Below are positions 1,456-45,078 of a DNA stretch of 64,000 bases, in pieces (position 1 is the stretch's first letter; every line of letters begins with the position of its first letter). A model generated the notes under the pieces. That model did no database searches. It saw nothing but the letters and a program-made list of their open reading frames with translations, and had not been told where the DNA came from. This DNA comes from Streptomyces sp. NBC_01689 (GTDB lineage: Bacteria; Actinomycetota; Actinomycetes; Streptomycetales; Streptomycetaceae). The position numbers and the translations under genes were made by a program. Location of the stretch: assembly GCF_036250675.1 (NCBI RefSeq), contig NZ_CP109592.1:5580001-5644000 (forward strand). The letters run 5' to 3'.

Positions 1456-1470
1456 CTGACGTACCGTCAG
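1456..1470. promoter_or_regulatory. Regulon dyad 1: CTGACG-TAC-CGTCAG
   Basis: This is a perfect 6+6 inverted repeat with a 3-base centre, 27 bases before the DoxX start. It belongs to a family of nine near-identical sites in the window and is probably an operator for a dimeric, TetR-type repressor. Confidence 0.75.
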
Positions 1471-1497
1471 AAAACCGCGTCGGCAGGGGGTACGGCC

Positions 1498-1950
1498 ATG
1501 GACACGATCTGGCTCGACGGGGCGCAGTGGCTGGCCGTGCTGCGGATCGGGCTCGGGCTGTGGTGGCTGGAGAGCTGGCGGCACAAGGACCGGGCGGCCT
1601 GGTTCGAACGGGGGACCGGGATCGCGTGGGCCGCGGACGTGGCGGCCAAGCACCGGTGGAGCGCGGTGCGTTCCGGCTTCGAGGCGGTCGTGGCACCACG
1701 CCCCCGGATGATGGCGTACGTCGTCGTCCACGCCGAACTGGCCCTCGGTCTGGGGCTGGTGGCCGGACTGCTGACCCCGGTCGCGCTGGTCGGCGGACTC
1801 CTGCTCAACCTCATGTACTTCACCCTCATGATCCACGACTGGGCCGAGCAGGGGCAGAACGCGATGATGGCGCTGATCTCGGCCGTCGCCCTGTTCGGGA
1901 TGGCCTGGCAGACGTGGTCGCTGGACGACGCGATCGGGCTCTTCCGGTGA
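1498..1950 (+). CDS. DoxX-like integral membrane protein
   Basis: This is a 150-residue polytopic protein with about four hydrophobic helices: one near residues 10-22, then clusters around 75-95, 97-113 and 120-135. The pattern and length fit the DoxX/DoxD family, whose bacterial members are small membrane proteins often found beside redox enzymes. The ATG at 1498 was chosen because regulon dyad 1 and the only sensible leader lie directly upstream; the frame is open to 1432. Its stop overlaps the GTG of the following DUF35 gene (GTGA), so the two are translationally coupled. The sequence does not give an enzymatic role. Confidence 0.8.
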   Translation: MDTIWLDGAQWLAVLRIGLGLWWLESWRHKDRAAWFERGTGIAWAADVAAKHRWSAVRSGFEAVVAPRPRMMAYVVVHAELALGLGLVAGLLTPVALVGGLLLNLMYFTLMIHDWAEQGQNAMMALISAVALFGMAWQTWSLDDAIGLFR

Positions 1951-2387
1951 GCGCCCGGTCCGGCCCGCCCGAGGCCGACGCCTTCACCCGGCCGTACTGG
2001 GACGCGGCCGCCGCGGGCCGGCTGCTGCTGCGCCACTGCGAGGCCTGCGGCCGGGCGCATCACTACCCCCGGGAGTTCTGTCCGCACTGCTGGAGCGAGG
2101 ACGTGCGCTGGCGGGCCGCGAGCGGCCACGCCACGCTCTACACCTGGTCCGTCGTGCACCGCAACGACCTCCCGCCGTTCGGTGAGCGGGTGCCGTACGT
2201 CGCCGCCGTCGTCGACCTCGCGGAGGGGCCGCGGATGATGACCGAGATCGTGGAGTGCGCGCACGGCGCACTGCGGATCGGCATGGAGTTGCGGGTGGCC
2301 TTCCGCGGCGCGACACCCGTCTTCCGCCCCGCCGCCGCGCCCGCGCACCCCCACGGACCACGGGCGCCACGGCCGCCCCGGGGGTGA
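1947..2387 (+). CDS. DUF35 OB-fold / zinc-ribbon protein (acyl-CoA partner)
   Basis: The protein has 146 residues. An N-terminal rubredoxin-like zinc ribbon, with two CxxC pairs about 11 residues apart (CEACG ... CPHC), is followed by a DUF35 OB fold. Such proteins form complexes with thiolase-like enzymes or acyl-CoA hydratases, for example ChsH2 and the DUF35 partner of the Ltp2 retro-aldolase in steroid side-chain breakdown, and help hold the CoA ester. The GTG start lies inside the DoxX stop. The C-terminal 25 residues are rich in Pro, Arg and His and look unstructured. A second DUF35 gene lies at 14972-15424 beside a thiolase; this one has no thiolase in its own operon and may pair with the product of 6310-7482. 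Confidence 0.8.
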   Translation: MSARSGPPEADAFTRPYWDAAAAGRLLLRHCEACGRAHHYPREFCPHCWSEDVRWRAASGHATLYTWSVVHRNDLPPFGERVPYVAAVVDLAEGPRMMTEIVECAHGALRIGMELRVAFRGATPVFRPAAAPAHPHGPRAPRPPRG

Positions 2388-2418
2388 ACTCGGGCGCCCG
2401 ACGCGTTTCAATGGCTGG

Positions 2419-6309: not shown

Positions 6310-7482
6310 CTACCGGCCCAGCACCACCGTCGCGGACGAGCAGAACCAGCCCCCGGTGCCGGAGGCCACGGCCAGCCGGGGCGGTTCGCCGTCCGGGCGC
6401 CGCACCTGGCGTCCGTCCGCCTCGCCCCGCAGCTGCCGCACGGCCTCGACCAGCAGGAACAGCCCTCGCATACCGGGGTGTTGGGCCGACAGCCCGCCCC
6501 CGTCGGTGTTCACCGGCAGTTCCCCGCCGACCAGCAGCCGCCCCTTCGCCGCGTCCACGAACGCCCCTCCCTCGCCCTTCGCGCAGAAGCCCAGGTCCTC
6601 CAGCGTCACGAGCGTCATGTACGTGAAGGCGTCGTAGATCTCGGCCACGTCGATCTCGTCCGGCCGTATCCCCGCCCGCCCGAAGGCGAGACGTCCGCTG
6701 ACCGCCGCCGGGGACACCGTGAAGTCGTCCCACTCCGACATCGTCGTGTGGGAGACGTGCTCGCCGGTGCCGAGGACCCACACGGGGGCCGTACGGCAGT
6801 CCCGTACGTACTCCTCGCCCACCAGCAGCACCGCCGCGCCCCCGTCGGACCGCAGGCAGCAGTGCAGCCGGGTGAAGGGGTCGGCGATCACCGGGCCGGA
6901 CAGGACGTCGTCGACCGTGATCGGGTCGCGGAACATCGCCTCGGGGTTGACGGCCGCGTTCGCGCGGGCCTGTACGGCGACCGAGGCGAGCTGTTCGAGC
7001 GTCGTGCCGTACTCGTGCATGTGGCGGCGGGCCGCCATCGCGTACTTGGCGATGAGCGTGTGCCCGTAGGGGACCTCGAACTGGAGCGGGCCGCGGGCCC
7101 CGAAGGAGAGGTCGCCCGTGCGGCGGCCCGCCCTGATGTCCGCGCGGGCCGTCGACCCGTACACGAGGAGGACGGCGCGGGCGTGACCGGCCGCGATCGC
7201 GTCGGCGGCGTGGGCCGCCATGACCTCCCAGGTGGAGCCGCCGACGGCGGTCGAGTCGACCCAGGAGGGCCGCAGCCCGAGGTACTCCGCGACCTCGGCC
7301 GGGGGGAGCGTGCCGAGACCGGCCGAGGCGAAGCCGTCGACCCGCGCCCGGTCCAGGCCCGCGTCCGCGAGCGCCCGGCGGGCGGCCTGCGCGTGCAGGG
7401 CGTAGGGGGTGGCGTCGTCCAGCCGGCCGCAGTCGGAGAGGGCGACACCCACCACGGCGACCTTGCGGTTCCCCGGAGTCAT
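6310..7482 (-). CDS. Thiolase-fold protein (lipid-transfer/SCP2 type) lacking nucleophile Cys
   Basis: A 390-residue thiolase-superfamily protein of the lipid-transfer or Ltp group: N-terminal VAVVGVALSDCG, a long central domain, VAEIYDAFTYMTLVTLEDLGFC, and NTDGGGLSAQHPGMRG near the C-terminus. At the position of the normal thiolase nucleophile the sequence reads GGSTW (residue T84), not Cys. Ltp2-like members of this family are retro-aldolases acting on beta-hydroxy-acyl-CoA with a DUF35 partner and do not need the thiolase Cys; that activity is the best inference. It is divergent from the acyl-CoA dehydrogenase, and regulon dyad 2 lies 5 bases before its ATG, overlapping the expected ribosome-binding region. 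Confidence 0.85.
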   Translation of the reverse strand: MTPGNRKVAVVGVALSDCGRLDDATPYALHAQAARRALADAGLDRARVDGFASAGLGTLPPAEVAEYLGLRPSWVDSTAVGGSTWEVMAAHAADAIAAGHARAVLLVYGSTARADIRAGRRTGDLSFGARGPLQFEVPYGHTLIAKYAMAARRHMHEYGTTLEQLASVAVQARANAAVNPEAMFRDPITVDDVLSGPVIADPFTRLHCCLRSDGGAAVLLVGEEYVRDCRTAPVWVLGTGEHVSHTTMSEWDDFTVSPAAVSGRLAFGRAGIRPDEIDVAEIYDAFTYMTLVTLEDLGFCAKGEGGAFVDAAKGRLLVGGELPVNTDGGGLSAQHPGMRGLFLLVEAVRQLRGEADGRQVRRPDGEPPRLAVASGTGGWFCSSATVVLGR

Positions 7483-7486: not shown

Positions 7487-7501
7487 CTGACGGTACATCA
7501 G
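7487..7501. promoter_or_regulatory. Regulon dyad 2: CTGACG-GTA-CATCAG
   Basis: This inverted repeat has one mismatch and extends to ATCTGACG/CATCAGAT. It begins 5 bases upstream of the thiolase start, so a bound protein would cover the translation and transcription start area. Confidence 0.75.
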
Positions 7502-7570: not shown

Positions 7571-7585
7571 ATGACGGCCCGTCAG
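7571..7585. promoter_or_regulatory. Regulon dyad 3: ATGACG-GCC-CGTCAG
   Basis: This dyad lies 18 bases before the acyl-CoA dehydrogenase start and matches the consensus at 11 of 12 arm positions. With dyad 2 it gives each of the two divergent genes its own site. Confidence 0.75.
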
Positions 7586-7603: not shown

Positions 7604-8797
7604 ATGGACGCCCGTTTCACCCCCGAACAGGACGAGATCCGCCGTACCCTCCGGGACCTCCTGCTCAAGCGGTGCGGTCCCGACGAGGTGCGGGCGGCCG
7701 TGCGGACCGCCGCCGGACACGACCCGGGCCTGTGGGACACGTTCGCCCGGCAGCTCGGTCTGCCGGGGCTCGCCCTCCCCGAGCGGTACGGCGGAGTCGG
7801 CTGTTCGGTGACCGAACTCGCCCTCGCCTGCGAGGAGTCGGGGCGGGCTCTGGCCCCCTCGCCGCTGATCGCCACGGCCGTCCTGGCCGCCCCGCTGATC
7901 CTGGCCCTCGGCACCGAGGCCCAGCGTGCCGCGCTGCTGCCCCGGATCGCGGACGGCGGACTGACCGCGGCCCTCGTGGTGCCGGGCACCGGGCTGCCCA
8001 CCGCCCTGGGACTCGTCGGCGACCAGTACGGGGACTGGGCGGGCGGAGGCCGCGCCGGCGGGGTGCAGGCCCGCCGGGCCGACGGTGGCTGGCGCCTCTA
8101 CGGGCAGGCGGCCCATGTGCTCGACGGACACAGCGCACGGCTCCTGGTGGTGGCCGCGCACACCGGAGGGTTCACCGGATCACGGACGTCGCTGTTCCTC
8201 GTACGGGCGGGGGCCGAGGGGCTCGTGCGGGTGCGGCAGACCTCGCTGGACGAGACGAGGGCGCAGGCCCGCGTCGAGCTGCGGGACGTGGTGGCCGAGC
8301 CGCTGGGAGAAGACGGGGCCGACACGCTCGGCGCGCTGGCCGGCCTCGGCCGGAGCGCGGCCGCCGTACTGGCCGCGGAGGCCGTGGGCGCGGCCGACCG
8401 GGCCCTGGAACGGACCGTCGAGTACGTCCGGCAGCGGGAACAGTTCGGGCGGGCCATCGGGACCTTCCAGGCGGTCAAGCACCGCCTGGCGGACGTGTAC
8501 GTGCGGGTGCAGGCGGCGCGCTCGGCGGCCTACTACGCCGCCTGGAACGCCGGTGAGGACGGCGGCGGTGAACGGGTCGGGGGTCTCGCGCTCGCCCAGG
8601 CCCTGGAGGCGCTGCGGACCGCCGCGGCCGAGGGCATCCAGCTGCACGGGGGCATCGGCTTCACCTGGGAGCACGAGGCACACCTGTACTTCAAGCGGGC
8701 GTCCGGCGACGAGCTGCTCTTCGGGCCGGTGCACCGGCTGCGGGCGCACGCGGCCGACGACGCGCGCCTCTTCGAGGGCGGGGAGCTGGTGGTCTGA
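7604..8797 (+). CDS. Acyl-CoA dehydrogenase
   Basis: A 397-residue flavoenzyme of the acyl-CoA dehydrogenase family: an N-terminal helical domain (LPGLALPERYGGVGCSVTELALACEESGRAL), a short beta domain, and a C-terminal FAD/tetramer domain with REQFGRAIGTFQAVKHRLAD and QLHGGIGFTWEHEAHLYFKRA. It would introduce the alpha-beta double bond into an acyl-CoA. The second motif ends in WEHE, as in actinobacterial FadE paralogues of steroid-type pathways. ATG 7604 has a GGAGG-like site (AGGAGGGG) upstream. The stop overlaps the next gene by one base, so the Ddn-like protein is co-translated. Dyad 3 lies just upstream. Confidence 0.92.
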   Translation: MDARFTPEQDEIRRTLRDLLLKRCGPDEVRAAVRTAAGHDPGLWDTFARQLGLPGLALPERYGGVGCSVTELALACEESGRALAPSPLIATAVLAAPLILALGTEAQRAALLPRIADGGLTAALVVPGTGLPTALGLVGDQYGDWAGGGRAGGVQARRADGGWRLYGQAAHVLDGHSARLLVVAAHTGGFTGSRTSLFLVRAGAEGLVRVRQTSLDETRAQARVELRDVVAEPLGEDGADTLGALAGLGRSAAAVLAAEAVGAADRALERTVEYVRQREQFGRAIGTFQAVKHRLADVYVRVQAARSAAYYAAWNAGEDGGGERVGGLALAQALEALRTAAAEGIQLHGGIGFTWEHEAHLYFKRASGDELLFGPVHRLRAHAADDARLFEGGELVV

Positions 8798-9285
8798 TGG
8801 CCCGCGGAGCGTCCCCCGGGGTCCGGCTCGTGCGGAAGGTCTCCTCCACCCGTGCCTTCGCCCGCCTCGCACCCCGTCTGGTGCCCGCGGTGGACCGCGC
8901 GGTGCACCGCCTGACCCGCGGCAGGGTGCTGCTCAGCTCACGGATGCTGCCCGGCCTCGTCCTCACGGCGCGCGGTGCGCGCAGCGGGCTGACGCGGCGG
9001 ACACCGCTGGCCTGCCTGCCCGAGGGGACCGACGCGTCGAGCTGGCTGCTCGTCGGCTCCAACTTCGGCCGCGCGGACCATCCGGCGTGGACCGCCAATC
9101 TGCTGGCCCACCCGGACGCCGAGGTGAGCTGGAAGGGCGCGGACGTCCCGGTGACGGCCCGGCTGCTGGCGGGGGAGGAGCGGGACGCGGCCTGGCGGGC
9201 GGTGGTGGCGTTCTGGCCGCCGTACGCCACGTACCAGGCGCGGATCGGCCGCGAGATCCGGCTGTTCCGCGTCACGCGGCGCTGA
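8797..9285 (+). CDS. Ddn-like deazaflavin (F420)-dependent nitroreductase-family protein
   Basis: A 162-residue split-barrel protein of the nitroreductase-family deazaflavin-dependent group (DUF385/Ddn). Diagnostic segments are TARGARSGLTRRTPLACLPEG, VGSNFGRADHPAWTANLLAHPDAEVSW and the late VVAFWPPYATYQARI. Relatives use reduced F420 to reduce quinones, enones or nitro compounds. Translation starts at an ATG that overlaps the acyl-CoA dehydrogenase stop by one base, so it probably acts on the same pathway, for example reducing an enoyl or enone intermediate. FbiC at 34620 would supply the FO part of F420. Confidence 0.87.
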   Translation: MARGASPGVRLVRKVSSTRAFARLAPRLVPAVDRAVHRLTRGRVLLSSRMLPGLVLTARGARSGLTRRTPLACLPEGTDASSWLLVGSNFGRADHPAWTANLLAHPDAEVSWKGADVPVTARLLAGEERDAAWRAVVAFWPPYATYQARIGREIRLFRVTRR

Positions 9286-9437: not shown

Positions 9438-10085
9438 CTACTTGGCGGGCTTCTTCCCGGTCACGCCGAGGTGCACCAACAGCGCGAGATTCGGCTTGAG
9501 TTCAGCCTGCTTCACACCCCAGGTCTGGAAGCCCTTCTGGTGCGAGGCCACCGCCGCGAGCATCGCGACGAGCGAGCCGGCCATCGCGGCGGGGTTGACG
9601 TCCTTGTCGACCCTGCCCTTGGCCTGCAGCTCGGCGACCGTGTCCGTAAGGGAGTTGTTCACCGAGTTCAGGATCTTCATGCGGATCTTGTAGAACCGCT
9701 TGTCGCCCTCGGCGGCGCCCAGGTCGACCACGCGGAGGATGGCGTCGTTCTTCCGCCAGAACTCCAGGAACCCGTCCACGAGTTCCTGCGCGGTCTGCCA
9801 GCCGGCCTTGCCCGCCCAGGAGCGCCCGTCGAGCAGTTCGGTCAACCCGGCGCCCTCCGCGGCCATTTGCTCCGCGATCTCCAGGACGGCGCCTTCGACG
9901 TCCGGAAAGTACTGGTAGAAAGTCGCCGGTGAAGTGCCCGCCTTACGCGCGACATCAATGACTTTGACGTCCCGGTAGGGCGAGGAGCTGAGCATTTCGC
10001 TGAGGCAGTCGAGCAGTTTCTGCCTGGTCGCCTGCCCACGCCGACCGGCCACGCGGCCGTCGACGGTACGCACTTGTCCTGTCAT
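9438..10085 (-). CDS. TetR-family transcriptional regulator
   Basis: A 215-residue regulator. The N-terminal helix-turn-helix covers about residues 18-65, with GTSPATFYQYFPDVEGAVLEIAE as the recognition helix region; the rest is an all-helical ligand-binding domain. The sequence around TVDGRVAGRRGQATRQKLL is strongly conserved in actinobacteria, and as I recall the S. coelicolor orthologue is SCO4421 beside kbpA. It lies among the regulon genes and is one candidate for the protein that binds the CTGACG-N3-CGTCAG dyads. Its own start is overlapped by a weak version, CTGTCATGCCGTCAG at 10079-10093. That link is inference; a regulator encoded elsewhere is equally possible. Confidence 0.9.
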   Translation of the reverse strand: MTGQVRTVDGRVAGRRGQATRQKLLDCLSEMLSSSPYRDVKVIDVARKAGTSPATFYQYFPDVEGAVLEIAEQMAAEGAGLTELLDGRSWAGKAGWQTAQELVDGFLEFWRKNDAILRVVDLGAAEGDKRFYKIRMKILNSVNNSLTDTVAELQAKGRVDKDVNPAAMAGSLVAMLAAVASHQKGFQTWGVKQAELKPNLALLVHLGVTGKKPAK

Positions 10086-10260
10086 GCCGTCAGCTTACCG
10101 AGGGGTGATCGGAGCGCGATTCGGCCGACTGCAAATGGGGTGCGGTGGGGTGTTGTGGGGCGTGGGTGAGGTGTGAGATGGACGCCGCACGGCCCGTGGG
10201 GCCCCTTCGGCCGGCGCCCGCCACCGCGCGGGGTGCCCGGAACGCCGTTAACTTGGCCGC

Positions 10261-14195: not shown

Positions 14196-14975
14196 TCAGC
14201 GTGTCCTGAACCCGTCCGGACGCCGGGCGGAGAACAGGTCCGCCTGCCGGTCCGGGGGCAGGTTGCCCAGGGAGATGAGGTGCGGGGACTGGGCGAACGC
14301 GTGGGCGCGGGCCGCCTCGTGGGCCGTCCACAGGGCGCGCACGGTGCCCTGCACCCCCTCCGGCGGGCAGGCCGCGACGGCCTCTGCGCACCGGACGGCC
14401 GCCGCCAACGCCGCTCCGGGAGCGGTGAGTTCGGAGACCAGCCCGATGTCGTGGGCACGCCGGGCGGACATCCGCTCGGCGGTCCCCATCAGCGCCATCC
14501 GCGCGGCCTCCCCGTACGGCATCCGGTGCGCCATGTACACCGACTCGTACGCGCTGACCATGCCGTACGTCGTGTGCGGATCGAAGAAGGTCGCGGTCTC
14601 GTCGGCGACGACGAACTCCGCCTCCCCGAGCAGATAGAAGGCGCCCCCGCAGGCCATGCCGCGCACGGCGGCCACGACCGGCTTCCACAGGTCGTTGGCC
14701 TTGGGGCCGATGCGCAGGAGCGGATCGTCCACCATGAAGGGCGAGTCCGGCTGCGGCACCTCGGACGCACGGTCGAGCCCGGTGCAGAAGGCCCGCTCGC
14801 CCGCCCCGGTCAGGACGACGGCCCGCACGGAGTCGTCGAACCGGAACGCCCTCCAGGCCGAGGCGAGTTCGGCGGCGGTCTCGACATCGATCGCGTTCAG
14901 CCGGGCGGGCCGGTCCAGGGTGAGGACGGCGACACCGGTCTCCTCGTCGCGGGAGATCCGCAGCCCGCCGCTCAC
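14196..14975 (-). CDS. Enoyl-CoA hydratase/isomerase (crotonase family)
   Basis: A 259-residue crotonase-fold protein: TLDRPARLNAIDVETAAEL, AVVLTGAGERAFCTGLD and VVAAVRGMACGGAFYLLGEAEFVVA, the last holding the oxyanion-hole Gly segments. It would hydrate an enoyl-CoA or carry out a related step. The motif reads CTGLD where hydratases usually have SAGxD, and the usual Glu positions are not obvious, so specificity may differ. The GTG at 14975 overlaps the stop of the upstream DUF35 gene (GTGA). It is last in a three-gene operon, thiolase-DUF35-hydratase, running on the minus strand. Confidence 0.85.
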   Translation of the reverse strand: MSGGLRISRDEETGVAVLTLDRPARLNAIDVETAAELASAWRAFRFDDSVRAVVLTGAGERAFCTGLDRASEVPQPDSPFMVDDPLLRIGPKANDLWKPVVAAVRGMACGGAFYLLGEAEFVVADETATFFDPHTTYGMVSAYESVYMAHRMPYGEAARMALMGTAERMSARRAHDIGLVSELTAPGAALAAAVRCAEAVAACPPEGVQGTVRALWTAHEAARAHAFAQSPHLISLGNLPPDRQADLFSARRPDGFRTR

Positions 14976-15424
14976 GACCGCTCCAGAACCCACTGCGGCA
15001 GCCCCCCGGCACCGAACACGACCCGCACCCGCGCCCCGATCCGGATGCGGTCGGGCGCGAGGGAGCCCAGCGGGTCGCCGGGCCCGGCGACCAGGTTGCC
15101 GACCAGGCGGATGCGCGGGGCGTCGGCGAGTTCGACGACGGCCGCGTTGTACGGCACCAGGGCCGCGTACGCCGGAAGCAGGGGCGGGTGGGGGACGACG
15201 TACGACCAGACCCGGCCGAGCCCGCTCGTCAGGCGCCACCGGCTCCCGAAGGAACGGCAGTGCGGACAGCAGGGCCGGGGCGGGAAGCGCGGCTCGCCGC
15301 AGTCGGCACACGCCTGGATCCGCAGCTCTCCCCGGGCGGCGTACTCCCAGAAGGGCGCGCCGTCGGCGTCCACGACCGGCGGGAGCAGACCTTCCGCGGG
15401 GTCCGGGGTGGGGGCTCGGGTCAT
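14972..15424 (-). CDS. DUF35 OB-fold / zinc-ribbon acyl-CoA-associated protein
   Basis: A 150-residue protein with an N-terminal helix, a zinc ribbon (CADCG ... CCPHC) and a C-terminal OB fold (VWSYVVPHPPLLPAYAALVPYNAAVVEL). It sits 9 bases after the thiolase stop, the arrangement of Ltp2-type aldolase complexes, where the DUF35 protein pairs with the thiolase-fold subunit and may help present the CoA ester. Its stop overlaps the hydratase GTG. It is the second DUF35 protein in the window. Confidence 0.88.
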   Translation of the reverse strand: MTRAPTPDPAEGLLPPVVDADGAPFWEYAARGELRIQACADCGEPRFPPRPCCPHCRSFGSRWRLTSGLGRVWSYVVPHPPLLPAYAALVPYNAAVVELADAPRIRLVGNLVAGPGDPLGSLAPDRIRIGARVRVVFGAGGLPQWVLERS

Positions 15425-15433: not shown

Positions 15434-16594
15434 TCAGGTTCGCAGCAGGACGGCGGAGGTGGGGACCCCTTCCCCGGCCGTGACCAGACAGGTGGCGGCG
15501 CCGGGCACCTGTGCGGTACTGGTCCCCCGCAGCTGCTTCACGCCCTCGGTGATGAGGTTGAAGCCGTGCACGTACGCCTCGCTGAGCCCGCCCCCGCCGG
15601 TGTTGAGCGGCAGCCGTCCGCCGATCTCCAGGGCGCCGCCCTCGGTGAAGGCGGCGCCCTCGCCGCGGCCGCAGAAGCCGTAGCCCTCCAGGGAGAGCGG
15701 TATGAGGGGCGTGAAGGCGTCGTAGATCTGGGCCACGTCGACGTCGTCCGGGGTGAAGTCGGCGTTCTTCCACAGGTGCCGGGCGGCGGTCCAGGCCGGG
15801 CCGGTGAGCGGGTCGTCGTTCCAGTAGTTGACCATGCCGTGGTGCTGGGCTGGCAGGCCCTGGGCGACGGAATGGACGTACACGGGCCGCCGCCGGCAGT
15901 CCCGGGCGCGTTCGGCCGACACGATCACGCAGGCCAGCGCCCCGTCCGTCTCCAGGCAGTTGTCAAAGAGACAGAGGGGTTCGCTGATCCAGCGGGAGGT
16001 CATGTACATCTCGCGGGTGAGCGGGCGGTCGTACATCATCGCGGCGGGGTTCTGGTTGGCCCGGTTGCGGCAGGCGAGCGCCACGTTGAAGAGATGGTCG
16101 CGGGTGGCGCCGTACTCGTGCATGTAGCGGCGCGCCAGCATGCCGATCTCGTCGGCGGGCCTGAGCAGCCCGAAGGGCCGCGTCCACTGCGCCGGGGTCG
16201 GGAGCTGGGCGACCGTGTTCCGCCACGGCCGGGGGCCGCTGCCGCGCTTGCGCGACCGCCAGGCGACCCCGACGCTCGCCTGCCCGGTGGCCACGGCGGC
16301 GGCGAGATGAGCGACCGTCGCGCACGAACCGCCGCCCCCGTACCCGACCTTGCTGAAGAAGGTGAGGTCCCCGAAGCCGAGCGCCTTGGCGACCTCGACC
16401 TCGTCGGTCTCCTCCATGGTGTACGAGGCCAGCCCGTCGACCTCGGAGGGCGCGATCCCCGCGTCGTCGAGAGCGGCCAGGATCGCGCGGCAGGCCAAGG
16501 TCTTCTCGGGCTCGGGGAGTTGCCGGGCGAAGGGGGTCTGGCCGATACCGACGACGGCCGTGGCGTCCTTGATCCCCGCCGTGCTCCGTGCCAT
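15434..16594 (-). CDS. Thiolase-fold protein (lipid-transfer / Ltp type)
   Basis: A 386-residue thiolase-superfamily protein: ATAVVGIGQTPFARQL at the start, YMHEYGATRDHLFNVALACR, VAQIYDAFTPLIPLSLEGYGFCGRGEG, and NTGGGGLSEAYVHGFNLI. In contrast to the product of 6310-7482 it has a Cys (C91, in GGGGSCATV) in the region of the thiolase nucleophile, though family members with DUF35 partners often act as retro-aldolases. It is first in the operon thiolase-DUF35-hydratase. Regulon dyad 4 lies 30 bases upstream, in a region shared with the divergent acyl-CoA ligase. Confidence 0.87.
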   Translation of the reverse strand: MARSTAGIKDATAVVGIGQTPFARQLPEPEKTLACRAILAALDDAGIAPSEVDGLASYTMEETDEVEVAKALGFGDLTFFSKVGYGGGGSCATVAHLAAAVATGQASVGVAWRSRKRGSGPRPWRNTVAQLPTPAQWTRPFGLLRPADEIGMLARRYMHEYGATRDHLFNVALACRNRANQNPAAMMYDRPLTREMYMTSRWISEPLCLFDNCLETDGALACVIVSAERARDCRRRPVYVHSVAQGLPAQHHGMVNYWNDDPLTGPAWTAARHLWKNADFTPDDVDVAQIYDAFTPLIPLSLEGYGFCGRGEGAAFTEGGALEIGGRLPLNTGGGGLSEAYVHGFNLITEGVKQLRGTSTAQVPGAATCLVTAGEGVPTSAVLLRT

Positions 16595-16624: not shown

Positions 16625-16639
16625 CTGACAGTGCGTCAG
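16625..16639. promoter_or_regulatory. Regulon dyad 4: CTGACA-GTG-CGTCAG
   Basis: This dyad lies 30 bases before the thiolase start at 16594 and has one mismatch between arms. It is paired with dyad 5, with 27 bp between centres. Confidence 0.75.
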
Positions 16640-16651: not shown

Positions 16652-16666
16652 CTGACGGGTAGTCAG
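16652..16666. promoter_or_regulatory. Regulon dyad 5: CTGACG-GGT-AGTCAG
   Basis: This dyad lies 30 bases before the GTG of the acyl-CoA ligase and is preceded by AAT, giving the extended ATCTGACG arm. With dyad 4 it divides the short divergent promoter region symmetrically. Confidence 0.75.
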
Positions 16667-16696: not shown

Positions 16697-18295
16697 GTGC
16701 GCGGTGACTTGGAGTGGGGCAGCGTCCCGGGGCTGATCCGGTCGGCGGCACGGCGGTTCGCGGACCACGAGGCCGTCGTCGAGGGCCGGACCCGCGTCAC
16801 GTACGCGGAGCTGGGCGCCCGCGTGGAACGCGCCGCGGCGGCCTGTCTCGCCGAGGGGGTGCGCACGGGCGACCGGGTCGCCGTCTGGGCACCGAACACC
16901 CTCGACTGGATCGTCAGCGCGCTCGGCGCGGTCTCGGCGGGCGCCGTCCTGGTCCCCCTCAACACCCGCTTCAAGGGCGCCGAGGCGGTGTACGTGCTGT
17001 CCCGGAGCCGGGCGCGACTGCTCTTCGTGACGGGGACGTTCCTCGGGACCTCGTACGTGGCCGCACTGCGCCGCGCGGCGGGCGAGGGGGACGGCCCCGG
17101 CCCGCTGCCCGGCCTCCCGCACCTGGAGCAGGTGGTGGTGCTGTCGGACGACGCCCCCGCCGACTTCCTCACCTGGAAGGATTTCCTGGCCGCCGGGGAC
17201 GCGGTCGGGCCGGAGCGGACCCGGGAGCGCGCGGAGTCCGTGGCGGGCACCGCTGCGTCCGACATCGTCTTCACCTCGGGGACGACGGGACGGCCCAAGG
17301 GCGCGGTGATCACGCACGCGCAGAGTCTGCGGGGCTACGCGATCTGGAGCGAACTGGCGGGCCTGCGCGCGGGCGACCGCTATCTGATCGTGAACCCCTT
17401 CTTCCACACCTTCGGCTACAAGGCGGGGGTGCTGGCCTGCCTGATGCGCGGCGCGACCATGGTCCCGCAGTCCGTGTTCGACGTGGACACGGTGCTGGCG
17501 AACGTGGCGGCCGAGCGCATCTCGGTCCTCCCCGGACCGCCCACGCTCCACCAGTCCCTCCTGGACCATCCGTCCCGGGACGCCTACGACCTGTCGGCGC
17601 TGAGGCTGGTGGTGACGGGTGCCGCGGTGGTGCCCCTGCGGCTGGTGGAGCGGCTGAGGTCGGAGCTGAGGATCGCCGCCGTGCTCACCGCGTACGGGCT
17701 CTCCGAGGCGAGCGGGATCGTCACCATGTGCCGCCGGGGCGACGAGCCCGCCGTGATCGCCTCCACCTCGGGGCGGGCGATCCCGGACACCCAGGTCCGG
17801 GTGGTGGACGCGGCCGGGGTGCCGGTGGCCCCCGGCACCCCGGGCGAGGTACTGGTCCGCGGCTTCAACGTGATGGGGGGCTACTTCGAGGACCCGGCGG
17901 CCACGGCGGCGGTCCTGGCGCCGGACGGCTGGCTGCGCACCGGCGACGTGGGTGTCCTCGACGCGGCCGGGAACCTGCGCATCACCGACCGGATCAAGGA
18001 CATGTTCATCGTCGGCGGGTTCAACGCCTACCCCGCGGAGATAGAACAACTCCTGGGCCTGCACCCGGACGTGTCGGACGTGGCGGTGGTCGGGGTGCCG
18101 GACGGGCGGCTGGGCGAGGTCGGCAGGGCCTACGTCGTACGGCGCCCGGGCGCCGAACTGACCGGCGGTGACCTGATCGCCTGGTCCCGCCGCGAGATGG
18201 CCAACTTCAAGGTCCCCAGGACGGTCGAGTTCGTGACCGAACTCCCGCGGAACGCGAGCGGGAAGGTGGTGAAGGGGGAGCTGCGGGGGCGGTGA
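16697..18295 (+). CDS. Acyl-CoA synthetase (AMP-forming, FadD-like)
   Basis: A 532-residue ANL-superfamily ligase. The phosphate-binding loop reads VFTSGTTGRPKGAV, the A5 motif TAYGLSEASG, the A7 motif WLRTGDVG, and the hinge and C-terminal motifs RIKDMFIVGGFNAYPAEIE and ASGKVVKGEL, with the catalytic Lys in the last. It activates a carboxylic acid to its CoA ester through an acyl-AMP and would start the pathway served by the dehydrogenase, hydratase and thiolases. The start is the GTG at 16697, preceded by GGGGAGG; the frame is open far upstream but antisense to the thiolase operon. Dyad 5 precedes it. Confidence 0.92.
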   Translation: MRGDLEWGSVPGLIRSAARRFADHEAVVEGRTRVTYAELGARVERAAAACLAEGVRTGDRVAVWAPNTLDWIVSALGAVSAGAVLVPLNTRFKGAEAVYVLSRSRARLLFVTGTFLGTSYVAALRRAAGEGDGPGPLPGLPHLEQVVVLSDDAPADFLTWKDFLAAGDAVGPERTRERAESVAGTAASDIVFTSGTTGRPKGAVITHAQSLRGYAIWSELAGLRAGDRYLIVNPFFHTFGYKAGVLACLMRGATMVPQSVFDVDTVLANVAAERISVLPGPPTLHQSLLDHPSRDAYDLSALRLVVTGAAVVPLRLVERLRSELRIAAVLTAYGLSEASGIVTMCRRGDEPAVIASTSGRAIPDTQVRVVDAAGVPVAPGTPGEVLVRGFNVMGGYFEDPAATAAVLAPDGWLRTGDVGVLDAAGNLRITDRIKDMFIVGGFNAYPAEIEQLLGLHPDVSDVAVVGVPDGRLGEVGRAYVVRRPGAELTGGDLIAWSRREMANFKVPRTVEFVTELPRNASGKVVKGELRGR

Positions 18296-22105: not shown

Positions 22106-22293
22106 CGCTGTCCCCCTGCCGAACCGTCAGTACAACGAGGCCAGTTTGCCTTGTTCATGGCGGATGCGTCAGCCGTGCGAGACGGCGATCACAGCCGCGC
22201 GCCCGAGGCGGTCGCGGAAGATCACACATCCCTCACACGCTCTCCGCACACGTTCGCACAGAGTCATGGGTTCCCGGGAGCGCTTCCAGACAG

Positions 22294-22308
22294 CTGACGG
22301 GTCGTCAG
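22294..22308. promoter_or_regulatory. Regulon dyad 6: CTGACG-GGT-CGTCAG
   Basis: A perfect 6+6 repeat followed by AT, 21 bases before the amidohydrolase ATG and in the divergent region with afsR. Confidence 0.78.
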
Positions 22309-25434: not shown

Positions 25435-25445
25435 CGAGCCGTCAG
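25431..25445. promoter_or_regulatory. Regulon dyad 7: CTGACG-AGC-CGTCAG
   Basis: A perfect repeat that overlaps the SDR stop codon, 62 bp (centre to centre) before dyad 8. It may cooperate with dyad 8 at the next promoter. Confidence 0.72.
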
Positions 25446-25492: not shown

Positions 25493-25507
25493 CTGACGGC
25501 ATGTCAG
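25493..25507. promoter_or_regulatory. Regulon dyad 8: CTGACG-GCA-TGTCAG
   Basis: One mismatch between arms; extends to AGATCTGACG and TGTCAGAT. It lies 27 bases before the GTG of the second LLM gene. Confidence 0.78.
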
Positions 25508-25534: not shown

Positions 25535-26653
25535 GTGGAATTCGGGCTCTTTGTACAGGGATACGTGGGAAAGCGCGCCGAGACCGACCCGCTCGCGGAA
25601 CACAAGGCGCTGATGGAGGAGACCGAGTACGTCATCCAGGCGGACAGGTCCGGCTTCAAGTACGCCTGGGCGTCCGAGCACCACTTCCTGGAGGAGTACT
25701 CGCACCTCTCCGCCAACGACGTCTACCTCGGCTACCTGGCGCACGCGACCGAGCGGATCCACCTCGGATCGGGCATCTTCAACCCGCTCGCCCAGGTCAA
25801 CCACCCGGTGAAGGTGGCCGAGAAGGTCGCCATGCTCGACCACCTCACAGGCAACCGCTTCGAGTTCGGGTCCGGCCGCGGCGCCGGCTCGCACGAGATC
25901 CTCGGCTTCCTCCCCGGTATCACCGACATGAACCACACCAAGGAGATCTGGGAGGAGACCATCGCCGAGTTCCCGAAGATGTGGCTCCAGGAGGAGTACC
26001 CCGGGTTCCAGGGCAAGCACTGGCAGCTCCCGCCGCGCAAGATCCTGCCCAAGCCGTACGGGAAGTCCCACCCCGCCATGTGGTACGCCGCCGGGTCGCC
26101 GCCCTCGTACGCGATGGCCGCCCGCAAGGGGCTCGGCGTGCTCGGCTTCAGCGTCCAGAAGGTCTCCGACATGGAGTGGGTCCTCGAGCAGTACAAGACG
26201 GCCGTCGTCGAGGCGGAGCCCGTCGGGGACTTCGTCAACGACAACGTGATGGTGACGACCACCGCGATCTGCGCGCCGACGCACGACGAGGCCGTCCGGA
26301 TCGCCGTCAGCGGGGGCCTGCACTACCTGCCCTCCCTCGTCTTCCGCTACCACGACACCTTCCCGCGCCCCGAGGGCTTCCCCGTCTGGCCCGAGACCCT
26401 CCCCGAGTACAACGAGGAGTTCATCGAGCTGCTGATCGCCGAGGAGCTGCTGATCTGCGGCGACCCGGACGAGGTGCTCACCCAGTGCAAGCGGTGGGAG
26501 CAGGCGGGCGCCGACCAGCTCTCCTTCGGCCTGCCGGTCGGGGTCTCGCGCGCATCCACGCTCCAGACCATCGAGCTGATCGGCCGGCACGTGATTCCGA
26601 AGATCGACACGGACCCGGTGCACCGGACCACCCGGTTCCGCCAGGCTTCCTGA
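25535..26653 (+). CDS. LLM-class flavin-dependent monooxygenase/oxidoreductase
   Basis: A 372-residue luciferase-like protein beginning VEFGLFVQGYVGKRAE, with ASEHHFLEEYSHLSANDVYLGYLAHATERIHLGSGI, HPVKVAEKVAMLDHLTGNRFEFGSGRG and a long C-terminal extension. The SEHHF motif and the LDHLTGNRFEFGxGRG motif are those of bacterial luciferase-like FMN monooxygenases, so oxygenation with FMNH2 is somewhat more likely than F420 chemistry; this is inference. It starts with GTG behind dyad 8 and is followed 10 bases later by a D-aminoacylase-like gene. Confidence 0.88.
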   Translation: MEFGLFVQGYVGKRAETDPLAEHKALMEETEYVIQADRSGFKYAWASEHHFLEEYSHLSANDVYLGYLAHATERIHLGSGIFNPLAQVNHPVKVAEKVAMLDHLTGNRFEFGSGRGAGSHEILGFLPGITDMNHTKEIWEETIAEFPKMWLQEEYPGFQGKHWQLPPRKILPKPYGKSHPAMWYAAGSPPSYAMAARKGLGVLGFSVQKVSDMEWVLEQYKTAVVEAEPVGDFVNDNVMVTTTAICAPTHDEAVRIAVSGGLHYLPSLVFRYHDTFPRPEGFPVWPETLPEYNEEFIELLIAEELLICGDPDEVLTQCKRWEQAGADQLSFGLPVGVSRASTLQTIELIGRHVIPKIDTDPVHRTTRFRQAS

Positions 26654-26663: not shown

Positions 26664-28394
26664 ATGCTCGACCACGTCATCAGGGACGCCACCGTCGTCG
26701 ACGGCACGGGCGCGCCCGGCCGCCGCGCGGACGTCGGCGTCCGGGACGGCCGGATCGCCGTGATCGGCACGGTCACGCAGCCGTCCCGGACGAGCGAGGA
26801 CGCCACGGGTCTCGTCCTCGCCCCCGGCTTCGTCGACCCGCACACCCACTACGACGCCCAGCTCTTCTGGGACCCCTACGCGACCCCGTCCCTGAACCAC
26901 GGGGTCACCACGGTCGCGGGCGGCAACTGCGGCTTCACCCTCGCCCCGCTCCACCCCGAGCGGCCCGAGGACGCCGACTACACACGGCGGATGATGTCCA
27001 AGGTCGAGGGCATGTCCCTGGTCGCCCTGGAGGAGGGCGCGCCCTGGAACTGGCACACCTTCGGCGACTACCTGGACGCGCTGGAGGGGCGGATCGCCGT
27101 CAACGCGGGCTTCATGGTGGGCCACTGCGCACTGCGCCGGTACGTGATGGGCGCGGACGCGGTGGGCGGGCAGCCCACCGGGGAGCAACTGGCGCGGATG
27201 CTCACGCTGCTCCACGAGGCGATGGACGCCGGCGCCTGGGGCCTGTCCACCACCCAGTCCTCCACCCACTCCGACGGGGACGGCAGGCCGGTCGCCTCAC
27301 GGCACGCCCGCCCCGCCGAACTGCTCGCCCTCAGCCGGGCGGTGGGGGAGCACGAGGGCACCCAGATCGAGGCGATCACGGCCGGCTGCCTCGACCAGTT
27401 CAGCGACGCCGAGATCGACCTCTTCGCCGAGATGAGCGCGGCGGCGGGCCGGCCGCTGAACTGGAACGTGCTGACGGTCGACGCCGCCGTGCCCGAACGG
27501 GTGCCGAGGCAGCTGCTGGCGAGCGAACGGGCACGGAAGGCCGGCGGCCGGGTGGTGGCCCTCACCATGCCGATCCTCACCCCCATGAACATGTCGCTGG
27601 GCACCTTCTGCGCGCTGAACCTGATCCCCGGATGGGGCGAGGTCCTCGCCCTGCCCGTCCCCGAGCGCATCGCCAGGCTCCGCGACGCGGACGTCCGGGC
27701 CGAGATGCTGCGCCGGGCCGGCTCCAAGGAGGCCGGTGTCTTCCGGCGGCTCGCGCACTTCGGGCGGTACGTGATCGGCGACACCTACAGCGCCGCGAAC
27801 GAGGGGCTCACCGGGCGGGTGGTCGGGGACATCGCGGCCGAACGCGGCCAGGAGCCCTTCGAGTGCCTGGTCGAGATCTGCGCCGCCGACGGGCTGCGGA
27901 CCGTGCTGTGGCCCATGCCCTCCGACAACGACCCCGCCTCCTGGGCCCTGCGCGCCGAGACCTGGCAGCATCCGGACGTGCTGCTCGGCGGCTCGGACGC
28001 GGGCGCCCATCTGGACCGCATGTGCGGGGCCCCCTACACGACCCGCTTCCTCGGGGACTGTCTGCGCGGCCGGCGACTGGTGCCGCTGGAGCGGGCGGTG
28101 CGGATGCTCACCGACGACCCGGCGCGCCTCTTCGGACTCCGCGAGCGCGGGCGGGTCGCCGAGGGCTTCCACGCGGACCTCGTGCTCTTCGACCCGGAGC
28201 GGATCGACGCGGGCAAGGCCACCCTGGTGCACGACCTGCCCGGGGACAGCCCGCGGCTGGACTCCAGGGCGATCGGCGTGCGCGCGGTGTGGGTCAACGG
28301 GGTCGAGGCGATCCGCGACGACACGGTCACCGGCGCCGTCCCCGGGAAGGTGCTCCGCTCCGGGCGGGACACGAGGACGGTGAGCACCCGGTGA
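26664..28394 (+). CDS. N-acyl-D-amino-acid deacylase-like amidohydrolase
   Basis: A 576-residue amidohydrolase of the D-aminoacylase/dihydroorotase group. The metal motif PGFVDPHTHYDAQLFWDP contains His60 and His62; GVTTVAGGNCGFTLAP, GHCALRRYVMG and LLGGSDAGAHLDRMCG follow, the last with the catalytic Asp; the C-terminus returns to the small beta domain (GRVAEGFHADLVLFDPERI). Family members hydrolyse N-acyl amino acids, cyclic amides or related bonds with zinc. In an operon of oxygenase, hydrolase and aldehyde dehydrogenase it may open an amide or lactam, or cleave a C-C/C-N bond in the pathway substrate. Its stop overlaps the aldehyde dehydrogenase GTG. Confidence 0.87.
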   Translation: MLDHVIRDATVVDGTGAPGRRADVGVRDGRIAVIGTVTQPSRTSEDATGLVLAPGFVDPHTHYDAQLFWDPYATPSLNHGVTTVAGGNCGFTLAPLHPERPEDADYTRRMMSKVEGMSLVALEEGAPWNWHTFGDYLDALEGRIAVNAGFMVGHCALRRYVMGADAVGGQPTGEQLARMLTLLHEAMDAGAWGLSTTQSSTHSDGDGRPVASRHARPAELLALSRAVGEHEGTQIEAITAGCLDQFSDAEIDLFAEMSAAAGRPLNWNVLTVDAAVPERVPRQLLASERARKAGGRVVALTMPILTPMNMSLGTFCALNLIPGWGEVLALPVPERIARLRDADVRAEMLRRAGSKEAGVFRRLAHFGRYVIGDTYSAANEGLTGRVVGDIAAERGQEPFECLVEICAADGLRTVLWPMPSDNDPASWALRAETWQHPDVLLGGSDAGAHLDRMCGAPYTTRFLGDCLRGRRLVPLERAVRMLTDDPARLFGLRERGRVAEGFHADLVLFDPERIDAGKATLVHDLPGDSPRLDSRAIGVRAVWVNGVEAIRDDTVTGAVPGKVLRSGRDTRTVSTR

Positions 28395-29869
28395 GCGGTG
28401 CCACCGGCAGCGGCCCGGGGGCCGGGGCACAGCGGCTGTTCATCGGCGGCTCGTGGGTCGCGCCCGACGACGGGCACTACGCGGTGACCGACCCGGCGAC
28501 CGAGGGGCTCGTCGGGTGGGCGCCGGAGGCCTCCCGGGACCAGGTGCGGGCGGCGGCGGCCGCCGCCCGTGAGGCCTTCGGGCCCTGGTCCCGGACGGCT
28601 CCGGAGGAGCGTGCCGCCGTGCTCGGCCGGGCGGCCGACGCCATCAGGCGCTCCCTCGTCCCGTACGCCGAACTCGCCGCGGCCGAGAGCGGTGCCACGA
28701 CGGCGACCGCGCGCGGGATGCAGGTGGGGGTGGCGGCCGCCCGCTTCCGGCGGTACGCCCGGGTCGAGCCGGCCGAGCAGCCGCTGCCGCCGCAGATCAA
28801 CGAGGCGGGACCGTTCGGCGGGGCGGCCGTGATGAGCGCCCTCGCGGTGCGCCAGCCCGTCGGCGTGGTCACCTGCATCACCTCGTACAACAACCCCTGG
28901 GCCAATCCGGCGGGGAAGGTCGCCCCCGCGCTCGCCATGGGCAACACGGTGGTCGTGAAGCCGGCCCCGCAGGATCCGCTGTCCGTCTACCGGATGGCGG
29001 AGGCGCTGGAGGCGGCGGGTGTGCCCCCCGGCGTGGTCAACGTGGTGAGCGGTTCGCGTCCGGCGGCCGGGGAGGCGGCCGTGGACTGCGAGGACGTGGA
29101 CATGGTCAGTTTCACCGGCTCGACCGCCGTCGGCCGGCGTATCGCCGAGGTGTGCGGCCGCGGGATGAAGCGCCAGCTGATGGAGCTGGGCGGGAAGGGA
29201 GCTGCCCTCGTCTTCGACGACGCCGACCTCGCGGCGGCGGTGTCGGGGATCGGCACCACGTACTCCTTCTACAGCGGTCAGATCTGCACGGCGCCGACCC
29301 GGGTGATCGCGCAACGGGGTGTGTACGACCGGCTGGTCGACGGACTCGCCGCGTACGCCGGGCGGCTGCCGGTCGGCGATCCACGGGAGCCGGGGACGGT
29401 GGTCGGGCCGGTCGTCTCGGCGGCCCACCGGGACCGGATCGAGGCGTACGTCGACCTCGGCCGGAAGGAGGGCGCGCGGGTGGTGGCGGGCGGTGAACGG
29501 CCGCCCTGCGACCGGGGGTTCTACGTCGCCCCCACGCTGCTCGCGGACTGCACGGCGGACATGCGGGTGGTCCGCGAGGAGATCTTCGGGCCCGTCGTCG
29601 TGGTCGTGCCCTTCGACGACGAGGAGGAGGGGATCGCGCTCGCCAACGACAGCGACTACGGGCTGATCGACTACGTGTGGTCGGGCGACGTGGCCCGTGC
29701 CTTCCGGGTGGCCCGGCGGCTCAGGTCGGGCGGGGTCGGGATCAACACCGTCGGCCGCAACATGGAGGCGCCCTTCGGCGGCTTCAAGCGGAGCGGTGTC
29801 GGACGGGACGTGGGCTCCTACGCGCTGCACGCCTACAGCGAGCTGCAGGCCCTCGTGTGGCCGGGGTGA
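28391..29869 (+). CDS. NAD(P)-dependent aldehyde dehydrogenase
   Basis: A 492-residue aldehyde dehydrogenase: VTCITSYNNPWANPAGKVAP (general-base/NAD region with Asn), VSFTGSTAVGRRI, the Glu motif MELGGKG, and the catalytic Cys299 in SGQICTAPTR. The C-terminal EAPFGGFKRSGVGRD is typical. It oxidises an aldehyde to a carboxylate, which the acyl-CoA ligase of the regulon could then activate. Translation is coupled to the upstream hydrolase by a GTGA overlap. It is the last gene of the unit and is followed by the twin-operator hairpin at 29886. Confidence 0.93.
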   Translation: MSGATGSGPGAGAQRLFIGGSWVAPDDGHYAVTDPATEGLVGWAPEASRDQVRAAAAAAREAFGPWSRTAPEERAAVLGRAADAIRRSLVPYAELAAAESGATTATARGMQVGVAAARFRRYARVEPAEQPLPPQINEAGPFGGAAVMSALAVRQPVGVVTCITSYNNPWANPAGKVAPALAMGNTVVVKPAPQDPLSVYRMAEALEAAGVPPGVVNVVSGSRPAAGEAAVDCEDVDMVSFTGSTAVGRRIAEVCGRGMKRQLMELGGKGAALVFDDADLAAAVSGIGTTYSFYSGQICTAPTRVIAQRGVYDRLVDGLAAYAGRLPVGDPREPGTVVGPVVSAAHRDRIEAYVDLGRKEGARVVAGGERPPCDRGFYVAPTLLADCTADMRVVREEIFGPVVVVVPFDDEEEGIALANDSDYGLIDYVWSGDVARAFRVARRLRSGGVGINTVGRNMEAPFGGFKRSGVGRDVGSYALHAYSELQALVWPG

Positions 29870-43806: not shown

Positions 43807-44182
43807 GTGCCCCCTCCAGGGGTCCGCCTTGTGAACCTGCAGTTACCGGACGGCACTTCGCCAGTACGCCTGGGTCCCCCCGCTCGGCCGGGGCCGAGTG
43901 TCCGGGGAGGGCGGAGCCCCCGTGCGGGAGCGGGGACTTGGGGGATTGAACCGCCGTTCGGAGGGAGCGGTCAAGACCCTTCGCGGTCATGGATATGAAC
44001 GCAGATCAGAAAGCAGAACGATTTTGCCTCTACTTTACCTCCCGGGCGGTTGTCGTGTCCGTGACGGGGACCACACCATGAGCGGGCACTTCGCCAGCAC
44101 ATCGACAGGACGACCTAGGTGACGACGGGCGTACGGGATGCGGGTCCCGTGCGGCCTGGAAGGGAGGACGGGACGGTCACGG
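43807..44182. other. Intergenic region upstream of symporter
   Basis: 376 bases between the symporter start and the stop of the SDR. It should contain the symporter promoter. A moderately AT-rich stretch near 43985-44040 stands out, but no gene or clear dyad is seen. Confidence 0.4.
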
Positions 44183-44968
44183 CTACCGCATGATCTCGCC
44201 GGCGTTCACGAGCAGGGACTGCCCCGTGATCGCCCGGGCCCGGTCCGAGGCCAGGAACACCGCGGCGTCCGCGACGTCGCCGTCGGTGGCCAGCTCGGGC
44301 AGCGCCATCCGCCCGGTGAGCCGCTCCAGGACGTCGGCCTCCGGCACGCCCTCGGTGTACGCGGTGAACTGGACGTACGCCTCCACCGGCGGCCCCCACA
44401 TCCAGCCGGGCAGCACGGTGTTGACCCTGATCCGGTGCGGGCCGAGCTCCCGCGCCATGGAGTACATCGCGCTCGTCAGCGCGCCCTTCGAGGCCGCGTA
44501 CGCCGCCTGTCGCACCTGTGACGGGGCGGCCACCGACGACTGCGTCCCGATGACGACGACCGAGCCGCCGCACACCTTCAGCGCGGGCAGGCAGGCCCGG
44601 GTCATCCGCAGGGTCCCCAGCAGGTTCACGTCGATGACCGACCGCCAGGTGGCGAAATCCGCGTCCTCCAGGCCGCCGAAGTAGCTGTCCCAGGCCGCGA
44701 CATGGACGACCGCGTCGATCCGCCCGAACCGCTCCGTGGCCAGTGCGGCCAGCGCCTCGCACTGCGCCTCGTCCGTGATGTCCGTGGCCCGGTACGCGGT
44801 GTGCGCGCCGTCCGGGTCGAGGTCGGCGGCCGACTTGGCGAGATTGGCCTCGGTGCGCGCCCCGAGGACCGCGTTCCCCCCGTCGCGCACGACGGCCGCC
44901 GCGACCTGGTGGCCGAGTCCGGCGCCGACGCCCGAAACGACCACGGTCCTGCCCGCGAGCAATGTCAT
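44183..44968 (-). CDS. SDR-family oxidoreductase
   Basis: A 261-residue SDR: SGVGAGLG (12-19) as a variant cofactor loop, VHVAAWDSYFGG in place of the NNAG strand, and Ser144/145, Tyr157 and Lys161 as catalytic residues. The C-terminal ATDGDVADAAVFLASDRARAITGQSLLVNAG closes the fold. It is divergent from the gene at 45116, and regulon dyad 9 lies between them, 95 bases from this start. This places it with the catabolic regulon although it is 14 kb from the next member. Confidence 0.88.
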   Translation of the reverse strand: MTLLAGRTVVVSGVGAGLGHQVAAAVVRDGGNAVLGARTEANLAKSAADLDPDGAHTAYRATDITDEAQCEALAALATERFGRIDAVVHVAAWDSYFGGLEDADFATWRSVIDVNLLGTLRMTRACLPALKVCGGSVVVIGTQSSVAAPSQVRQAAYAASKGALTSAMYSMARELGPHRIRVNTVLPGWMWGPPVEAYVQFTAYTEGVPEADVLERLTGRMALPELATDGDVADAAVFLASDRARAITGQSLLVNAGEIMR

Positions 44969-45063
44969 CGCGGTCTCCCCCTCCCTCGTACGGTCCGGTC
45001 CGTCCCCGGGCCGGAGTGCCCGGCGGCCCGCTCGCCCCGGGGTGCGCGGCTATGGCGCTTTGT

Positions 45064-45078
45064 CTGACGGAGCGTCAG
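45064..45078. promoter_or_regulatory. Regulon dyad 9: CTGACG-GAG-CGTCAG
   Basis: A perfect 6+6 repeat, 37 bases before the GTG at 45116 and in the divergent region with the SDR at 44183-44968. Confidence 0.78.

Follow-up and report, generated by a model that had tools for sequence, protein, structure and literature searches.

What ties together the catabolic genes that lie scattered between antibiotic-regulator and cofactor genes in a Streptomyces chromosome? The question is raised by a stretch of 64,000 nucleotides from Streptomyces sp. NBC_01689 (contig NZ_CP109592.1, positions 5,580,001 to 5,644,000; hereafter the window, whose numbering is used unless genome coordinates are stated), where a 15-bp dyad, CTGACG-N3-CGTCAG, typically extended to (A/T)2-CTGACG-N3-CGTCAG-(A/T)2, stands before one catabolic unit after another. 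A preliminary description had listed nine copies, had taken them as the mark of one dispersed regulon, and had named the TetR-family regulator encoded at 9438-10085 as a candidate reader. Our answer is that the dyad is likely to be the operator of this TetR protein, which would repress a catabolic regulon until an intermediate of the pathway releases it. If so, a regulator found in 149 of 150 Streptomyces genomes acquires a testable job, and 29 scattered genes fall into one likely pathway.

All nine dyads are present, four of them exact and five with one mismatch. They are listed here without strand; three-digit numbers are genes of the source genome, G000, other G numbers are genomes and L numbers are loci.
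1456..1470, exact dyad, putative operator of 034-035 (DoxX-like, DUF35)
7487..7501, dyad with one mismatch, 5 bp before thiolase 042
7571..7585, dyad with one mismatch, 19 bp before acyl-CoA dehydrogenase 043
16625..16639, dyad with one mismatch, 31 bp before thiolase 051
16652..16666, dyad with one mismatch, 31 bp before the FadD3-type ligase 052 and 27 bp from its partner site at 16625
22294..22308, exact dyad, 22 bp before the amidohydrolase operon 056-058
25431..25445, exact dyad, 90 bp before 059 and 62 bp before the next site, overlapping the stop codon of the short-chain dehydrogenase/reductase (SDR) gene 058
25493..25507, dyad with one mismatch, 28 bp before the luciferase-like monooxygenase (LLM) operon 059-061
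45064..45078, exact dyad, between the SDR gene 071 and 072
Gene starts are approximate, because the genes were called with an in-house codon-usage caller. A predicted start codon follows eight of the nine sites at 5-38 bp, where 5-40 bases had been announced, and the ninth overlaps a stop just as described.

Copies of this kind are far more frequent than random DNA would provide. A first-order Markov model (60 simulations) leads one to expect 0.05 exact and 0.60 one-mismatch copies in the window, and the Poisson probabilities of what is seen are about 8e-7 and 3e-12, respectively. With at most one mismatch there are 12 matches altogether, the three additional ones (22116, 49396 and 63269) looking like chance matches that lack A/T flanks or sit in a gene (49396 is intragenic). 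With up to three mismatches the excess disappears (60 observed, 75 expected in shuffles), and therefore only near-perfect copies are meaningful. The whole source genome holds 13 exact dyads against two of the reversed pattern, and 66 copies of the A/T-flanked form with up to two mismatches, again against two; the reversed control understates chance, because it has fewer CG steps, and better baselines are the Markov test and those Streptomyces with few dyads (0-5 exact copies in 22 of the 45 genomes without the regulon marker, amidohydrolase 056).

The placement of the sites is equally telling. Their centres are intergenic in 17 of 18 cases in the source genome, 16 of 17 in G009 and 14 of 14 in G013 (47 of 49 in total), for an intergenic fraction of 14-17% in these regions. 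Fourteen of the 15 regulon sites of the source genome end 5-58 bp before a predicted start, and in several promoters paired sites are 24-27 bp apart. Orthologous promoters in other Streptomyces keep them. Footprints of three promoters, taken at TetR loci of named Streptomyces, show a site in the divergent 042/043 promoter in 43 of 43 loci, in the divergent 051/052 promoter in 42 of 42, and no more than 200 bp upstream of 034 in 21 of 21, 20 of them exact. Fixed 200-bp windows yield a site for 042 in 55 of 56 cases, and for 051 and 052 in 41 of 42. Dyads are present, for example, at the TetR loci of S. griseus (L329) and S. noursei (L283). Among the core controls, the count is 0 of 58 in the TetR/glyoxalase region, 0 of 71 upstream of afsK and 2 of 24 at gene 033, where the site may be that of 034, because the two genes diverge. 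The statement that no core gene has a site holds generally, apart from a weak match 29 bp before afsR (22116-22130), with one mismatch and no A/T flanks, that is missing upstream of afsR in both G009 and G013.

The genes themselves come and go together. The set, as we count it, comprises 29 genes, which form about 15 predicted transcription units and are spread over the chromosome from 5.561 to 5.626 Mb, the dyads themselves spanning 5.563-5.625 Mb; unlinked operons lie elsewhere. With a threshold of at least 45% identity, orthologues of the 29 genes at this locus number 26 in G009, 29 in G013, and none in G027 and G010, two genomes that keep afsK, afsR, fbiC (recognized by its radical SAM and CofH_C domains), the TetR gene and other interspersed genes in the same order. 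No dyad occurs in the 80 and 60 kb of the G027 and G010 regions, and elsewhere in these genomes the marker 056 and IpdA, the only two genes which that search covered, are absent as well. The regulon genes are likewise absent from the locus in G118 and G136. Among 150 congeners the marker is orthologous in 101, represented by a paralogue only in four and absent in 45; these genomes together contain 1848 exact dyads, compared with 52 copies of the reversed control, and the median number of exact dyads is 15 with the marker and six without it (p 3e-13, the four paralogue-only genomes set aside). Statistics, footprints, joint absence of the genes at the locus and the relatives described below all strongly back the idea of one dispersed catabolic regulon. 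Its units share what a single regulon should have, a conserved operator-like dyad before them.

Which protein reads the dyad? Two features of the window bear on this.
9438..10085, minus strand, TetR family regulator (PF19352 TetR_C_38 and PF00440), two genes from afsK, proposed reader of the dyad
10079..10093, minus strand, degenerate dyad with two mismatches, covering the ATG of the TetR gene
The protein has a TetR_N helix-turn-helix (PF00440, 26.7 bits for a cut-off of 24) and a strong match to PF19352 (246.6 bits for 23.9). SlmA is its best NCBIfam match (NF007015), an assignment that fails, with only 31 bits against a cut-off of 120. The TetR gene is present in 149 of 150 Streptomyces genomes, and therefore its presence inside the genus cannot assign the regulator. 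The comparison was made instead with 268 genomes of the class outside Streptomyces, 25 of which have a TetR relative at an E value of 1e-15 or better. There, regulator and motif go together: at least six exact dyads are found in 15 of the 25 TetR-bearing genomes and in one of the 243 others (p 4e-17), and leaving out family f13, which is described below, still gives 10 of 20 TetR-bearing genomes (p 5e-12). At 20 loci the 150 bp before the TetR gene itself were searched for a dyad, exact or with one mismatch: 10 of 12 relatives of at least 47% identity have one, as does one of eight below that limit, which was set after the loci were seen. Of the other genes at these loci, 27 of 314 have one. 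These neighbourhoods lack the afsK/afsR gene order. In Actinomadura sp. K4S16 (L294), dyads come after the TetR orthologue (56%) and precede relatives of 032 (64%) and 019 (72%). Dyads occur in family f18 too, where the TetR gene has a relative of 057 close by at five loci (60-62%) and one of 072 at four (54-62%).

The most serious competitor of this assignment is a regulon truly marked by the dyad, as its operator, that another, unlinked regulator would read, the TetR protein being a core bystander with targets of its own. Several facts speak against TetR as the reader, and two of them, the presence of its gene irrespective of the regulon and its degenerate Streptomyces site, speak for the competitor. 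In Streptomyces the TetR gene is present with or without the regulon, missing only from the fragmented G139, and the DNA-binding part of its product is nearly invariant in regulon-free genomes too, so that the protein must have another role; its own site is degenerate, and at 72 of 72 named Streptomyces loci the 200 bp before its gene contain neither an exact nor a one-mismatch dyad. Thirteen of the 45 marker-negative Streptomyces still hold at least nine exact dyads, while G044 and G051, with 31 and 19, have no regulon at the afsK-fbiC locus. Outside the genus, 10 of the 25 TetR-bearing genomes have 0-4 exact dyads (one in G203, none in G170 and G179), and the TetR-negative G291, a genome 68% complete, has 10. 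Two of the closer relatives, in G160 and G262, lack an upstream dyad by count (the called start in G160 is overlapped by one with a single mismatch), and the best copy that Actinomadura has before its TetR gene shows two mismatches. On the other side stand the dyads in the relatives' own promoters, away from the afsK/afsR order, and the way in which TetR tracks dyad abundance outside Streptomyces; they make a different reader, in our judgement, rather unlikely.

Other candidates were considered. The flavin reductase gene 030 has an exact dyad before it (5576426 in genome coordinates) and is absent from G010 and G027, but its product belongs to PF01613 and is not a regulator. Another TetR gene of the window, 064 (31789-32637), lacks an orthologue in the regions of both G009 and G013. 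No TetR gene lies directly behind the off-cluster exact sites that were examined, in a family search which covered part of the genes.

Rates of change agree with the 9438-10085 protein as reader only weakly. At AfsK-kinase distances of 0.03-0.08, the median p-distance of TetR for 246 pairs of regulon-bearing genomes is 0.126, and for 56 regulon-free pairs it is 0.177, in a test on 50 genomes from which G031 dropped out and whose length-filtered version kept only 13 and 9 rows; the support is weak because pairs are non-independent, one genome was lost and the helix-turn-helix hardly varies in either group. The 20-base start context of the gene is identical in 123 of 142 Streptomyces loci, some of which share a genome. 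As a separate observation, about 57 bp upstream of the gene (10086-10142) are nearly invariant in 30 Streptomyces loci, bases farther upstream being variable.

By position alone, the same regulator appears to be SCO4421 of Streptomyces coelicolor, encoded by a TetR gene near afsK (SCO4423) whose expression rises in sporulation and which is active in spores, with a deletion lacking a phenotype; the account of it in PMC3878966 gives no targets or motif.

The genes that the dyad would control in the window are the following.
1498..1950, plus strand, 034, DoxX-like (weak match, PF07681, 18.6 bits for a cut-off of 23.6)
1947..2387, plus strand, 035, DUF35/ChsH2-type
6310..7482, minus strand, 042, thiolase-like
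7604..8797, plus strand, 043, acyl-CoA dehydrogenase (best NCBIfam match IpdE2, below cut-off, 206 of 450)
8797..9285, plus strand, 044, F420H2-dependent quinone reductase-like
14196..14975, minus strand, 049, enoyl-CoA hydratase family
14972..15424, minus strand, 050, DUF35/ChsH2-type
15434..16594, minus strand, 051, thiolase-like
16697..18295, plus strand, 052, FadD3-family acyl-CoA ligase (NF005801, 787.8 bits for a cut-off of 657)
22330..23589, plus strand, 056, amidohydrolase (PF04909), the regulon marker
23562..24548, plus strand, 057, LLM oxidoreductase
24649..25434, plus strand, 058, SDR
25535..26653, plus strand, 059, LLM oxidoreductase
26664..28394, plus strand, 060, amidohydrolase (PF07969)
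28391..29869, plus strand, 061, aldehyde dehydrogenase
44183..44968, minus strand, 071, SDR (orthologue in G013, not in G009)
45116..45955, plus strand, 072 (no Pfam match up to E 1; relatives of 54-62% near the TetR gene at four f18 loci)
Two gene labels of the preliminary description call for a reservation: the DoxX call is weak, and the protein called EthD-like is 072, the one with no Pfam match.

The sites first listed belong to the regulon, which is larger than they had suggested. Upstream of the window, further sites at genome coordinates 5562960, 5563037, 5568701, 5576426, 5579711 and 5579735 precede a CoA ligase (018), an amidohydrolase with two acyl-CoA dehydrogenases (019-021), a PF04199 cyclase-family gene (023), genes for an SDR, an acyl-CoA dehydrogenase, a Zn-alcohol dehydrogenase and a major facilitator superfamily transporter (024-027), the flavin reductase (030), and an ATP-grasp acyl-CoA synthetase with an enoyl-CoA hydratase (032-031). 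More operons were drawn from 40 selected off-cluster stretches of other genomes and from stretches of the source genome. There, dyads lie before a DUF35 gene in six genomes (followed by a thiolase where this was read), before one LLM oxidoreductase in four genomes (the site being inside the called gene in one) and another in three, before a cytochrome P450/thiolase pair in two, and before an aldehyde dehydrogenase near 6.727 Mb; L364_004 is DUF7064 by Pfam, not a P450. Several off-cluster exact matches, intragenic and without A/T flanks, are taken as chance.

The scenario that we favour would run as follows. A TetR dimer would bind the dyad in or near promoters and repress the 15 or so units between 5.561 and 5.626 Mb, together with the unlinked operons (DUF35-thiolase, LLM oxidoreductases, P450/thiolase pair, aldehyde dehydrogenase), until a pathway intermediate, probably an acyl-CoA thioester, releases it. 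The enzymes would then activate an alicyclic or branched carboxylic acid, which would undergo beta-oxidation-like steps and retro-aldol or thiolytic breakdown. A cyclic or branched acid or amide had been guessed as the substrate: the cyclic acid fits the CoA ligase, the acyl-CoA dehydrogenases, the thiolase/DUF35 pairs and the Ipd-type links, and the amide has no specific support, because genes of the amidohydrolase superfamily need not act on amides.

Could the substrate be a whole steroid, and the set a conventional steroid degradation regulon of the cholesterol type? The FadD3-family ligase 052, well above its cut-off, points that way, and so does a Frankiales locus, L250 (on the same contig as L264, JAICXJ010000001.1), where the neighbours of the TetR gene are an enoyl-CoA hydratase (NF005925, 406.9 bits, cut-off 260), a CoA-transferase-A-like protein (58.9, below 128.5), a 235-residue protein with no NCBIfam match, a FabK-like flavoprotein (247 bits, below 453), an SDR (NF005893, 364.9, cut-off 255) and an IpdE2-like dehydrogenase (236.7, below 450). 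By order and protein types this dyad-bearing operon matches the echA20-ipdA-ipdB-ipdC and ipdF genes tabulated in PMC5380842, where IpdC is called FabK-like, and we read it as an echA20-ipdABC-type operon, the names IpdA, IpdB and IpdC being predicted from order, family and cross-comparison. The IpdA orthologue, too, goes with the regulon in Streptomyces, in 23 of 23 marker-positive and one of eight marker-negative genomes (31 searched).

Against a steroid, the KshA signature (PF19298, KshA_C) has no match in the source genome, exceeds its cut-off in seven of the 31 genomes and is strong (E about 1e-89) in two, and 55 of the 57 Streptomyces genomes counted in PMC4810484 are without steroid pathways. 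For these reasons the substrate is probably an alicyclic acid and not a whole steroid. Furthermore, the ipd operon of Streptomyces is unlinked to the regulon, with its four-gene order in the 12 loci read (L379-L390, the source genome not among them), and in all 12 its promoter has no dyad, the sole near match being inside the ipdB-like gene of L381. Upstream of echA20-ipdABC all 12 loci share a different palindrome, ACCTAACAAAYGTTTGGT, after which 11 of them have GGAAAGGTAGC; together these are likely to be the operator and promoter of a different regulator, under which the operon would then seem to stand. A KstR2-type consensus is absent upstream of the 12 operons. A steroid regulon is on this evidence unlikely, and the occurrence of the dyad at the ring-cleavage operon in Frankiales, and of a different palindrome in Streptomyces, suggests rewiring.

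No earlier description of the motif or of the regulon was found among the papers listed in searches of the open-licence literature. The operators of KstR2 and KstR, two TetR-family regulators with which comparison is natural, both differ from CTGACG-N3-CGTCAG. A profile of 11 of the TetR relatives finds EthR first, and none of its 38 PDB matches, many with generic names, is named KstR2. Like the proposed regulator, KstR2, whose regulon serves catabolism of 3aα-H-4α(3′-propanoate)-7aβ-methylhexahydro-1,5-indanedione (HIP) in mycolate actinobacteria, is a TetR-family protein that controls FadD3, acyl-CoA dehydrogenases, a thiolase and SDRs (PMC5380842). The echA20-ipdA-ipdB-ipdC-like operon beside the regulator gene is a likeness seen in Frankiales, whereas in Streptomyces that operon has no dyad, and the LLM, amidohydrolase and F420-type genes of the present set are not in the KstR2 table of PMC5380842. 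KstR resembles the present system in governing a large lipid-degradation regulon (PMC1995591), but it is a different regulator, and the regulon studied here is present in some Streptomyces species and absent in others. Within the genus, Sco4385 is a TetR protein adjoining CoA-ligase and enoyl-CoA hydratase genes (the acyl-CoA set sco4383-4386), but at a separate locus and with a 23-bp consensus of its own (PMC12093943); G027 has a broadly similar group of ligase, hydratase and dehydrogenase genes, only 29-36% identical to the genes here.

Instead of repressing, the TetR protein that reads the dyad might activate, or do both. Some TetR proteins do activate, as PMC12093943 states, and the paired sites 24-27 bp apart could suit cooperative binding. 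The close spacing between site and start in the source genome, seen at 14 of 15 sites, argues otherwise, since a protein bound there would tend to block transcription. Many TetR relatives also have a site before their own gene, as is common in autorepression. Activation or dual control seems to us quite unlikely, and repression by the 9438-10085 protein is the sense in which we take the dyad.

That the sites are chance matches or a non-regulatory repeat, for which one may plead the lack of excess at three mismatches and the very numerous, often intragenic copies of family f13, is already contradicted for Streptomyces by enrichment, intergenic placement and footprints set against core controls, and hardly deserves further thought.

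Family f13 is a curiosity of its own. All five genomes sampled (G161, G183, G200, G215 and G230) hold 109-218 exact dyads each, with 0-1 of the reversed control, and in the loci inspected (L395-L414, L252, L254, L255 and L263; 474 kb with a coding fraction of 0.88) seven of 10 exact copies are intragenic. The copies seen lack A/T flanks. The TetR relative of this family has about 40-49% identity, and two aligned f13 proteins share the presumed recognition helix. It is conceivable, at long odds, that the SCO4421-type lineage uses the dyad in more than one way, with a chromosome-wide role in f13, as in SlmA-type nucleoid occlusion, and a catabolic regulon in Streptomyces, Frankiales and Actinomadura; on this reading the core, spore-expressed Streptomyces protein, which persists where the regulon is missing, may keep a second, non-catabolic function. 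Finally, the afsR region at L134 (G105) carries three AfsR-like genes, 59-63% identical to the AfsR of the window.

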